From the NCBI RefSeq assembly GCF_002920915.1, contig NZ_PQVF01000010.1:1-64000 (forward strand): a stretch of 64,000 bases of DNA, in the 5' to 3' direction. The notes under the pieces are model-generated. The model ran no database searches, was not told the DNA's origin, and worked only from the letters and a program-made list of their open reading frames with translations. The position numbers and the translations under genes are program-made. Source of the stretch: Solitalea longa. GTDB lineage: Bacteria > Bacteroidota > Bacteroidia > Sphingobacteriales > Sphingobacteriaceae. Below, one piece after another: positions 57,243 through 60,817 of this stretch; the first letter of the stretch is position 1, and each line of letters starts with the position of its first letter.

Positions 57243-58037
57243 TTAAGACAGGCTTTTAACTGATTCTATAAAACCTTTACATGTTTCTGCTGGGTTTACA
57301 GTTTTCATAAAGGTTTCTCCGATGAGGAATCCCCGATATCCAACATTTTTTAGATCGATAATGGTTTGCGGATTTGATAAAGCACTTTCCGATACTTTAA
57401 CAAACTCATCTGGGATTAAGTCTGCTAAATCAAAGGATGTTTGAATATCGACATTAAAAGTAGCCAGGTTCCGGTTGTTAACTCCAATGGCATCGATATA
57501 AGGACTGATACTGCATAAGAGTTCTTGCTTGTCGTGAACCTCTAGCAAAACGCTCATTCCTAAACTTTGTGCAAAGGCACCTAATGATTTTAACTCTTCA
57601 GGAGAAAGGCAAGCAGATATCAACAAAATAACATCGGCTCCAATTGATTTAGCTTCCAATATTTGGTATTCGTCAATAATAAAGTCCTTGCGAAGAATGG
57701 GAACTTCATTTACCCTGCGAGCCTTAATTAGATTCTCGTTTGAGCCGTTAAAAAAATCGACATCAGTTAATATAGAAAGTACCGATGCTCCTGCATCAAC
57801 ATATCCTTTTGTAGTTTCAGCAACGTCGGCATCGGCATTTAAGATGCCTTTTGAAGGCGATTTTCTCTTAAATTCAGCGATCAGGCCAATTTTTTCGGTA
57901 TTGGTTAATGCTTCTTTGAATGAATAACATTCTCGGTCAAAAAACTCGCTTTTCTCTAATAGTTCAATCGGAGTTTTGGCTTTGTTTTCAAGTATTTCCT
58001 CCCTTTTACGGGCAACAATTTTATCTAAAATGGTCAT
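57243..58037 (-). CDS. trpC: Indole-3-glycerol phosphate synthase
   Basis: Ring-closing step of tryptophan synthesis, converting CdRP to indole-3-glycerol phosphate. The 264 residues form a TIM barrel: LIAEFKRKSPSKG (catalytic Lys and phosphate region), ILTDVDFFNGSNENL, PILRKDFIIDEYQI, GVNNRNLATFNVD, VSESALSNPQTI and GFLIGETFMK are all typical IGPS signatures. It starts 15 bases after trpG and ends the visible trp operon. No TrpF domain is fused. Confidence 0.97.
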   Translation of the reverse strand: MTILDKIVARKREEILENKAKTPIELLEKSEFFDRECYSFKEALTNTEKIGLIAEFKRKSPSKGILNADADVAETTKGYVDAGASVLSILTDVDFFNGSNENLIKARRVNEVPILRKDFIIDEYQILEAKSIGADVILLISACLSPEELKSLGAFAQSLGMSVLLEVHDKQELLCSISPYIDAIGVNNRNLATFNVDIQTSFDLADLIPDEFVKVSESALSNPQTIIDLKNVGYRGFLIGETFMKTVNPAETCKGFIESVKSLS

Positions 58038-58052
58038 TTTTCAATTCTCAAA

Positions 58053-58622
58053 TTAATTCTTAATCCAGTTTTCCAGCATGGTTCTGCCGTGTTCCGTTAA
58101 TACTGATTCAGGGTGAAACTGAACTCCACGAACATCAAAGTCTCGGTGACGCATAGCCATAATGGTTCCATCTTCAGAAACTGCAGTTACTTCCAATTCA
58201 GCTGGTAAGCCCTCAGTGGCTACAGCCCATGAATGATAATGTCCGATATTTACTCCCTGTGGAACGTTTTTAAAGATCAACTCATTGCTGTCGGTTATTT
58301 TTACTGGCGAAGCAATTCCATGAAGGACTCTTGAAAGATTGAAAAGCTTGGCCCCAAAAGCCTCGCCAATAGCCTGATGACCAAGACACACACCCAAGAT
58401 GGATTTCTTACCAGCGTAGGTTTTGATCAGTTGAGGCATTATACCCGCTTCTTCCGGCAAGCCAGGTCCCGGAGAAAGGATGATCTTATCGTATTGGTTT
58501 ACATCTTCCAACGAAATTTTATCGTTTCTGAATACTGAAACTTCGCCAATTCCAATTTCCTCAACCAAATGAACCAGGTTGTAGGTAAACGAATCGTAAT
58601 TATCTAGAATAAGGATTTTCAT
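58053..58622 (-). CDS. trpG: Anthranilate synthase component II (glutamine amidotransferase)
   Basis: Supplies ammonia from glutamine to TrpE. The class I amidotransferase triad is complete: Cys79 in LGVCLGHQA, His170 and Glu172 in VQFHPES. ILDNYDSFTYNL and LSPGPGLPEEAG are the other signatures. The 189 residues are a stand-alone domain with no fused TrpD. It is separated from trpE by a 71-base spacer full of GATTACAC repeats. It may also serve PabB. Confidence 0.96.
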   Translation of the reverse strand: MKILILDNYDSFTYNLVHLVEEIGIGEVSVFRNDKISLEDVNQYDKIILSPGPGLPEEAGIMPQLIKTYAGKKSILGVCLGHQAIGEAFGAKLFNLSRVLHGIASPVKITDSNELIFKNVPQGVNIGHYHSWAVATEGLPAELEVTAVSEDGTIMAMRHRDFDVRGVQFHPESVLTEHGRTMLENWIKN

Positions 58623-58693: not shown

Positions 58694-60106
58694 TTAAATC
58701 TCTTCGGCTAATTCGATGGCTTTTTTTAAGGCGGCCATCTTGTTGTAAACCTCCTGACGCTCGCTGGTTAATACTGAGTCGGCTACAACACCGGCTGCAG
58801 CTTGATAATTTAAGGTGTTGCTTTTACTCATAAAAGTACGGATCATAATGGCATGATTAAACTCGCCATTAAAGCCTAAAAAGCCAATGGCTCCACTGTA
58901 AAATCCACGTGATCCATGCTCATATTCATCGATCAACTGCATGGCCCGGTATTTAGGTGCACCTGATAATGTACCAGCTGGGAATGTGTCAGCCACTACT
59001 TTTAAAGGTTCGGTTTCGGGTTTTAGTTTTCCGGTAACTGCCGATACAAGGTGAATGACATGTGAGTAATACTGAATTTCGCAGAAGCGATCTACTTTAA
59101 CCCGGTCGCAATGGCGACTTAAGTCGTTTCTTGCCAAATCAACCAGCATTACGTGTTCAGCGTTTTCTTTAGGGTCATTTTTTAGTTTTTCCGCTAATTC
59201 AGCATCAGCAGCATCATCACCGGTTCTTCTAAAAGTTCCGGCAATTGGATGGATCGAGGCTACACCGTTTTTAATCCCTAATTGAATTTCGGGGGAAGAA
59301 CCAAATAGTTTAAAATTCCCATAATCAAAATAGAATAAATAGGGTGATGGGTTGATAGAGCGCAAGGCGCGGTATACATTAAAATCATCTCCCTGAAACT
59401 CCTGAGAAAAACTTCTAGAGATTTGAATCTGAAATATATCTCCCCGAAACACATTTTTCTGAGCCTTTTCTAACACTTTCAAGAATTCTTCATCGGTGAA
59501 ATTGGATGTTTCGTGATTTAGGGCCTTGAAATGGTATTGTGGGAAATCTTTATTTCTGATCAGGTATTCTACTCGTTCAATTGTGGTATTACTTTGATGA
59601 TCGGCGTAATTATGATTGAAAATATACAGCTCGTTCTTAAAGTGATTGATTGCGATAACTGTTTGATAAACATGGTAAAGCAATTCGGGGGTTTCTCGTT
59701 CAGGACGTTTGGTGTTATGAAGTTTAATGTCTTCGAAATGTTCAATCATTTCGTAGTTAAAATAGCCAAACAAACCATTGGTTATAAAATTGAACGAAAA
59801 ATTATCATCATACTCAAAGCGTTTGCAAAACGAGGCGAGGCGATCCGTAATATTTTCTTCTACAGCAATGAGCTTTGAGGTTGATCCATCCGGAAATGAT
59901 TCGGTATAAATACCATTCTCAATTTTAACTTCCGCCACCGGGTTACAGCAGATATACGACATACTGTTTTGGCGTGTATGATAATCGGAGCTTTCGAGCA
60001 ATAAACTGTTTGGAAATTCATCGCGCAAACGAAGGTAAATGCTCACAGGGGTGGCTGTGTCGGCCAGTAGTTTTTTAAATGTTGTTTCAGACTTAAATGT
60101 TTTCAT
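58694..60106 (-). CDS. trpE: Anthranilate synthase component I
   Basis: Converts chorismate to anthranilate using ammonia from TrpG. The 470 residues comprise an N-terminal domain with the feedback-site element LLESSD (tryptophan-binding LLES) and the chorismate-binding domain with IQISRSFSQEFQG, PSPYLFYFDYGNFKLFGSSPE, HPIAGTFRRTGDD, NAEHVMLVDLARNDLSR, FPAGTLSGAPKYRAMQLI and GFLGFNGEFNHAIMIRT. First structural gene of the trp operon. A leader peptide with two Trp codons and a terminator lie upstream, so it is probably controlled by attenuation in addition to feedback inhibition. Confidence 0.97.
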   Translation of the reverse strand: MKTFKSETTFKKLLADTATPVSIYLRLRDEFPNSLLLESSDYHTRQNSMSYICCNPVAEVKIENGIYTESFPDGSTSKLIAVEENITDRLASFCKRFEYDDNFSFNFITNGLFGYFNYEMIEHFEDIKLHNTKRPERETPELLYHVYQTVIAINHFKNELYIFNHNYADHQSNTTIERVEYLIRNKDFPQYHFKALNHETSNFTDEEFLKVLEKAQKNVFRGDIFQIQISRSFSQEFQGDDFNVYRALRSINPSPYLFYFDYGNFKLFGSSPEIQLGIKNGVASIHPIAGTFRRTGDDAADAELAEKLKNDPKENAEHVMLVDLARNDLSRHCDRVKVDRFCEIQYYSHVIHLVSAVTGKLKPETEPLKVVADTFPAGTLSGAPKYRAMQLIDEYEHGSRGFYSGAIGFLGFNGEFNHAIMIRTFMSKSNTLNYQAAAGVVADSVLTSERQEVYNKMAALKKAIELAEEI

Positions 60107-60164: not shown

Positions 60165-60194
60165 AAAAAAAGCTTGCCGCAGTGCGACAAGCTT
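60165..60194 (-). terminator. trpL: Attenuator terminator upstream of trpE
   Basis: On the minus strand AAGCTTGTCGC (60194-60184) pairs with GCGGCAAGCTT (60180-60170) through a three-base loop with one U-G pair, directly followed by a seven-U tract. It lies 58 bases before the trpE start. Its left arm contains GTCGCA, which can instead pair with the TGCGAC of the upstream hairpin. Confidence 0.85.
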
Positions 60195-60232
60195 CATAAA
60201 ATCTTTTTCAGGGTTATTCGGTAAACACAAAA

Positions 60233-60260
60233 TATAAAGCCAGGTCGCAATTAGTTATTG
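60233..60260 (-). promoter_or_regulatory. trpL: Pause/antiterminator hairpin of the trp leader
   Basis: GTTGCAAT and ATTGCGAC (both minus strand, about 60262-60240) can pair over eight bases around the leader-peptide stop. The second arm can alternatively pair with GTCGCA in the terminator. This gives the 1:2, 2:3, 3:4 logic of attenuation. Confidence 0.6.
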
Positions 60261-60301
60261 CAACGCCACCAGGCAAAAATATTTGTGTTTTTATTGTTCA
60301 T
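60251..60301 (-). CDS. trpL: trp operon leader peptide
   Basis: A 16-codon ORF on the minus strand encodes MNNKNTNIFAWWRCNN and ends in TAA. Two adjacent Trp codons (60266-60271) sit near its end, about 70 bases before the terminator stem, the geometry used in trp leaders where ribosome stalling at Trp codons decides between antiterminator and terminator. A TTTG-N20-CATTTTTG promoter-like pair (60338-60307) puts the transcription start almost at the ATG, so the message may be nearly leaderless. Confidence 0.82.
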   Translation of the reverse strand: MNNKNTNIFAWWRCNN

Positions 60302-60306
60302 GATTT

Positions 60307-60338
60307 CAAAAATGGAAAACGCAATTCAGCTTTCCAAA
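60307..60338 (-). promoter_or_regulatory. Likely promoter of the trp operon
   Basis: On the minus strand TTTG (60338-60335), a 20-base spacer and CATTTTTG (60314-60307), one mismatch from TAnnTTTG. It lies between the stop of the upstream gene and the leader peptide. Confidence 0.5.
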
Positions 60339-60344
60339 TAAAAT

Positions 60345-60788
60345 TTAAAATAACTTGGTGATAATGTTATACGGAGCAGCTGCTAAGCTCACCAAAATCA
60401 GCAATAACCCAAGGCCATAGAACACTGCAATTTTCTTATGCTTCTCAAATCCGATCTCTAACCGTTTCGCTTTTGAGTAGCCAATGGTAATCAAAACAAT
60501 GGCAATTATCATCATTAATGCATGCTCAACGGTGAAGTAACGAATTACAGCATCTTTCATTGTGTTGGCTCCAAACTGAACTTTCGGACTAACGAAATAC
60601 ATTACAAAACCAATAACCATTTGAAGGTGAACAGAGATCAGCGTAAATAGATTAACCTTACGGTTGCCTTCGGTATAAAGTTTACTGCTATTGTTCCATG
60701 CACTAACGGCTTTAACTACAGAAATAATCAGTAGAATTAGCGCGATCCAGCGCAAAAAAGAATGAAGATGTAAAAGTCCTGTGTACAT
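60345..60788 (-). CDS. Small four-helix membrane protein (cytochrome b-like)
   Basis: A 147-residue inner-membrane protein with four predicted helices. The start is placed at the ATG 60788 (MYTGLLHLHSFLRWIALILL) because the alternative TTG at 60812 lies inside a promoter element. His residues at or in the helices (HLHSFLRW, SVHLQMVIGF, VEHALMMI) could coordinate haem, and similar Bacteroidota proteins are sometimes annotated as cytochrome B; I cannot confirm haem binding by eye. It is monocistronic by position, just upstream of the trp leader. Confidence 0.72.
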   Translation of the reverse strand: MYTGLLHLHSFLRWIALILLIISVVKAVSAWNNSSKLYTEGNRKVNLFTLISVHLQMVIGFVMYFVSPKVQFGANTMKDAVIRYFTVEHALMMIIAIVLITIGYSKAKRLEIGFEKHKKIAVFYGLGLLLILVSLAAAPYNIITKLF

Positions 60789-60809
60789 ACTTGTTATTTT
60801 TTTTGTTGC

Positions 60810-60817
60810 CAAATATA
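60810..60817 (-). promoter_or_regulatory. -7 element of the four-helix membrane protein gene
   Basis: The minus strand reads TATATTTG (TAnnTTTG), about 22 bases before the ATG at 60788. It decides the start choice. Confidence 0.5.

Follow-up and report, generated by a model that had tools for sequence, protein, structure and literature searches.

Putative tryptophan attenuators ahead of trpEGC and trpDFBA in Solitalea longa

The window analyzed here, a stretch of 64,000 nucleotides from Solitalea longa (contig NZ_PQVF01000010.1), contains a cluster of trp genes on the minus strand, on which all features described below are located. The cluster comprises trpE (anthranilate synthase component I; 58694–60106), trpG (anthranilate synthase component II; 58053–58622), and trpC (indole-3-glycerol phosphate synthase; 57243–58037), followed by hflX. 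Family models agree with the gene identities given in a preliminary description of this DNA; the matches of trpG (TIGR00566) and trpC (NF001377) are over the respective cut-offs, and the best NCBIfam match of trpE is trpE_most (E 1.7e-128), under its curated cut-off. The putative attenuator of these genes occupies an intergenic stretch of 238 bases between the stop codon of a 155-aa gene and the ATG of trpE (60106). Its elements follow each other (5' to 3') in the order TTTG, CATTTTTG, an open reading frame of 16 codons, an 8-bp hairpin, and a terminator of 11 bp that runs into a T stretch and is followed by trpE. The gene directly upstream (60345–60812) encodes a membrane-protein-like product with a weak match to DUF420 (under the cut-off); judged by eye, a similar protein seems to end upstream of trpE also in a Daejeonella locus (L027).

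The leader ORF (60251–60301; ATG at 60301, stop codon TAA at 60253–60251) encodes the peptide MNNKNTNIFAWWRCNN, whose tandem Trp codons (TGG TGG, 60266–60271), conserved among relatives as WW or WWW, are the presumed sensor of the system. The ORF is preceded by a putative promoter that consists of a -7 element, CATTTTTG (60307–60314; consensus TAnnTTTG), and a candidate -33 element, TTTG (60335–60338), located 20 nt ahead of the -7 box, in agreement with the -33/-7 promoter consensus quoted for Bacteroidota (PMC7366714). The -33 region, ATTTTATTTGGAA, is kept in all four members of the genus. A YAnnTTTG box is present within 25 nt ahead of the leader ATG in 42 of 51 trpE leaders of the family and precedes the leader ATG also in 45 of 49 trpD leaders, against a background of 0.02–0.03 per 30 nt. 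In most of the trpE leaders, the gap between box and ATG is 5–10 nt. Because the AUG in the window sits only 5 nt past the -7 box, the leader-peptide mRNA is probably almost leaderless; the trpEGC transcript would start near 60303–60304, a few bases ahead of the AUG, and its 5' UTR would measure about 2–3 nt if the box is centered at -7. An almost leaderless leader peptide had already been proposed in the preliminary description and gains support from the position of the box in most relatives. Only about 3.7% of the 5' UTRs of Bacteroides thetaiotaomicron are shorter than 10 nt (PMC7366714). A near-leaderless trp leader has a precedent in Sinorhizobium meliloti, whose trp leader RNA has the AUG at its very 5' end (PMC7298713).

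The spacer of the putative promoter overlaps with an inverted repeat (TGGAAA-N12-TTTCCA, 60313–60336), which was considered as an operator of a Trp repressor. The repeat is kept in one congener and degraded in two of three; because of this loss, it is probably no operator.

Re-reading of the sequence bore out the anatomy originally described. The first hairpin is formed by segment 1 (GTTGCAAT, 60257–60264) and segment 2 (ATTGCGAC, 60244–60251), which share eight pairs including one G-U; the pairing is significant in all four congeners (shuffle p <0.02). The terminator is formed by segment 3 (AAGCTTGTCGC, 60184–60194), its left arm, and segment 4 (60165–60180), which comprises the right arm, GCGGCAAGCTT (60180–60170), and the T run. 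It has 11 pairs, among them one G-U, and the loop ACT. The first two bases of T7 (60171–60165) are part of the stem, and 58 bases separate the T run from the ATG of trpE. Segment 2 can pair alternatively with segment 3 to form an antiterminator. The complementarity between TGCGAC (60249–60244) and GTCGCA (60188–60183) that had been pointed out is real and is extended in the window by four to five more pairs across a small internal loop (-14.5 kcal/mol). The contiguous core of the window antiterminator is not significant when taken alone (p ~0.1), and the structure is longer and cleaner in two congeners than in the window. The antiterminator segment starts about 15–18 nt past the last Trp codon (15–17 nt for the duplex of segment 2 with the left arm of the terminator), a position that a stalled ribosome would leave just uncovered. 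An additional outer stem encloses the Trp codons; its left arm, AAACACAAA (60282–60290), lies inside the leader ORF and pairs with TTTGTGTTT (60223–60231). The outer stem averages a z of -2.2 across 50 family trpE leaders and is represented in congeners by AACTCAAA/TTTGAGTT, a compensatory change relative to the window.

The arrangement is not expected by chance. The leader of 142 nt folds at -39.7 kcal/mol, which is 4.6 sd below dinucleotide shuffles. When the 238-nt intergenic stretch was shuffled 20,000 times, a WW leader ORF occurred 43 times and a terminator of at least nine pairs twice, and the two never occurred together. A scan of both strands of the window for a terminator preceded by a short ORF that contains either WW or three identical residues returned the trpE leader as the only unit.

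The leader is conserved among relatives, whose upstream regions were compared for trpE of 80 named Bacteroidota records and for trpE and trpD of 70 and 53 genomes of the family, respectively. The nearest named TrpE proteins are those of Daejeonella, Pedobacter, and Sphingobacterium (61–62% identity), which suggests a placement of the genome in or near Sphingobacteriaceae. Two Trp residues were counted as a pair if they were neighbors or no more than two residues apart, and the ORF was required to precede a terminator; by this criterion, the combination is present ahead of trpE in 72 of the 80 named loci; in the family of Solitalea, it precedes trpE in 51 of 70 and trpD in 49 of 53 cases. Of the loci failing this criterion, many were judged by eye to contain Trp codons that are spaced (WLW, WQW) or single, to use GTG as the start codon, or to be cut by the end of a contig. 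The leader peptides of the window and its three congeners are MNNKNTNIFAWWRCNN (twice), MNKINSNNFAWWRCNN, and MNKINSNKFAWWRCNN; an ORF of 16 codons with a WWRCNN end is present in three congeners.

The comparison of relatives suggested in the preliminary description thus recovered the leader ORF and revealed also compensatory changes in the terminator and the antiterminator. In the family alignments, both sides of the terminator changed in 6 of 11 pairs ahead of trpE and in 4 of 10 ahead of trpD. Both-side changes in the antiterminator were found in 5 of 8 pairs of the trpE alignment (14 cells vs. 4.6 in shuffles) and in 3 of 8 pairs of the trpD alignment; 85% of the trpE antiterminator cells are paired, compared to 28–45% when the register is slid. 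The first hairpin of the trpD leaders shows both-side changes in all four pairs tested, with only 68% of the cells paired. The stems were placed on the alignments by eye, and kinship alone can push sequences above shuffles without structure. The counts agree with an alignment-free duplex test, in which the region past the Trp codons was paired with the left arm and loop of the terminator. It yielded -13.2 kcal/mol for the trpE leaders of the family, vs. -7.9 for shuffles and -10.5 for the terminator of another leader, and -12.0 vs. -7.3 kcal/mol (shuffles) for the trpD leaders. For the phylum-wide trpE set, an initial version of the 2:3 test that considered just the left arm and uninterrupted pairing gave a negative result, and inclusion of the loop brought only a partial improvement. 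The left-arm test is weak in Flavobacteriia and Cytophagia (z -1.2), which suggests that the register of the antiterminator may differ in these classes. In trpE leaders of Flavobacteriia such as L052 and L054, the antiterminator seems to pair into the loop and right arm of the terminator (TCGTGAA/TTCACGA) and not just with its left arm. RNAalifold returned the terminator alone for the full trpD alignment, as expected for two competing structures, and the named stems were counted instead.

A second putative Trp attenuator is located in the same genome before trpDFBA (contig C31, L227:5520-5680, minus strand). Its leader peptide is MKHTVLNNIWWWRCINCGR, its terminator is GGGTTGCC/GGCAACCC, and its antiterminator is GGTAACC; it is followed by trpD, trpF, trpB, and trpA. 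A covariance model derived from 28 trpD leaders, with all trpE leaders left out, returned as its top two sites in this genome the trpD leader itself (99.5 bits; included in the model) and the site in the window (57.2 bits, E 1.8e-7; not included). No third Trp leader was above background in the genome, with E values of 0.07 or worse from rank 3 onward; eight lower-ranked matches that were inspected have no trp gene nearby. Across 198 genomes of the phylum, every strong match that was inspected immediately preceded trpE or, within the family, trpD; outside the family, 24 of 24 preceded trpE. The split into trpEGC and trpDFBA is probably derived, because trpD follows trpG in one unit in 72 of the 80 named Bacteroidota loci; the four nearest named relatives have the order trpE-G-C. 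Both halves are preceded by a leader in at least 27 of the 39 genomes where both were read, a lower bound because the criteria were strict.

Based on the sequence elements, their conservation, the compensatory changes, and the copy before trpDFBA, the trpEGC leader very probably senses charged tRNA-Trp and acts as a ribosome-mediated transcription attenuator. Tryptophan attenuation before trpEGC, as originally proposed, is favored by all tests, including conservation in the phylum, compensatory changes, and recovery by the trpD model, and the leader combines the features of the class: an ORF with adjacent Trp codons, an intrinsic terminator, and a mutually exclusive antiterminator past the stalled ribosome, with the terminator still competing at equilibrium. 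If tryptophan is plentiful, the ribosome would reach the stop codon or leave, and segment 2 would be covered or paired with segment 1; with segment 2 occupied, the 3:4 terminator should form and transcription would end ahead of trpE. If tryptophan is short, the ribosome would stall on the two Trp codons and cover both segment 1 and the outer stem's left arm; we propose that segments 2 and 3 would therefore pair, no terminator would form, and trpEGC would be transcribed. When folding was constrained by a ribosome mask, before segment 4 is made, segment 3 was predicted to pair with region 2 at a probability of 0.91 for a ribosome positioned on the Trp codons, 0.44 for one at the stop codon, and 0.29 without a ribosome; in the latter two cases, the terminator would follow. 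Once complete, the terminator prevails or competes at equilibrium even in the stalled state (0.59–0.62 in the window, at least 0.9 in congeners). The attenuation model therefore needs co-transcriptional kinetics, with the antiterminator forming first, which is the usual view for attenuators.

The classical example of such a system is the trpL leader of Escherichia coli, whose leader peptide contains a pair of adjacent Trp codons and whose RNA can form the alternative pairings 1:2, 2:3, and 3:4 as well as a U-run terminator. The leader in the window shares the adjacent Trp codons, the three alternative pairings, and the U-run terminator. In trpL, by contrast, the 5' UTR is an ordinary one that includes a ribosome-binding site, and the operon that follows is single and unsplit, whereas the AUG in the window would be almost at the transcript start and an extra outer stem surrounds the Trp codons.

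The question whether this form has been described in Bacteroidota can be answered in the affirmative. A leader named Bacteroid-trp (Rfam RF01692) was described in 2010 by Weinberg et al. (PMC2864571), and a paper of 2019 noted it ahead of the Flavobacterium psychrophilum trp operon and compared it to the attenuator of E. coli (PMC6414381). The literature searched yielded no experimental study of trp attenuation in Bacteroidota, which is not proof of absence. Like RF01692, the leader in the window occurs in the same phylum before a trp gene, has its WW leader ORF where the model places it, an outer stem around the Trp codons, an inner hairpin, and GCTTGTC at the left arm of the terminator; the alignment covers model positions 1–131. 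The sequences of inner stem and terminator, however, have diverged, and the model ends in the left arm of the terminator and thus lacks the antiterminator/terminator switch. The score of the window (26.3 bits, E 4.9) does not reach the gathering score of 49 bits, and the trpD leader of the same genome scores 31.7 bits. The cut-off is reached by just 1 of 60 relatives and thus fails to capture this lineage. We consider the trpEGC leader a ribosome-mediated trp attenuator of the Bacteroid-trp type by architecture, not a member of RF01692 by score. The trp leaders of the family align end to end with RF01692 (window positions 60186–60321), yet nearly all remain under the gathering score.

Another relevant system is rnTrpL/peTrpL of S. 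meliloti, whose transcript begins at the AUG of a Trp leader peptide of 14 aa and whose trp genes are split over operons, the second of which (trpDC) is regulated in trans by the leader sRNA (PMC7298713). Since a short ORF that is putatively near-leaderless and split trp genes are found also in Solitalea, its terminated leader RNA or peptide might likewise act in trans, in addition to its role in cis. This is improbable: unlike in S. meliloti, the second operon, trpDFBA, carries its own attenuator, so that control in trans is not needed for its coordination.

Two other explanations appear even more remote. The hairpin might merely terminate the 155-aa gene, which is encoded on the same strand and ends only 43 bases before the leader ATG, and the WW ORF would then be a chance reading. 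However, a promoter box lies between that gene and the leader ORF, the ORF, its Trp codons, and the antiterminator are conserved jointly with the terminator in many genera, and none of the 20,000 shuffles matched the combination of WW ORF and terminator; moreover, the trpD copy of the attenuator sits elsewhere, next to another neighbor, which leaves this reading with hardly any probability. Similarly, the combination of a terminator with a long leader is also typical of T-boxes, TRAP-like protein sites, and riboswitches, which might exert control via the same terminator. However, an Rfam search detected neither a T-box nor a riboswitch, with Bacteroid-trp as the only biologically sensible match, and the conservation is centered on Trp codons within an ORF; control by another type of leader is therefore just as hard to credit.

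Attenuators of this kind are already known in the phylum, and the modest additions of the present analysis are the presence of one putative attenuator per half of the pathway and the probably nearly leaderless ORF. We consider it somewhat probable that an ancestral trpEGDCFBA operon was split in the family and that the attenuator was duplicated or re-acquired; the two halves would then be controlled by leaders that evolved separately, differ in their switching sequences, and yet read the same tRNA. Both leader peptides would be translated from nearly leaderless transcripts, so that the ribosome could load once the AUG emerges. The comparison lends support to a wide distribution of classical tRNA-Trp attenuation in Bacteroidota, and the threshold of RF01692 passes over the trp leaders of nearly a whole family. 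The genome of S. longa provides a natural example of a split operon with an attenuator on each half, and its short, probably nearly leaderless leader ORFs may serve as material for tests of translation start in Bacteroidota.
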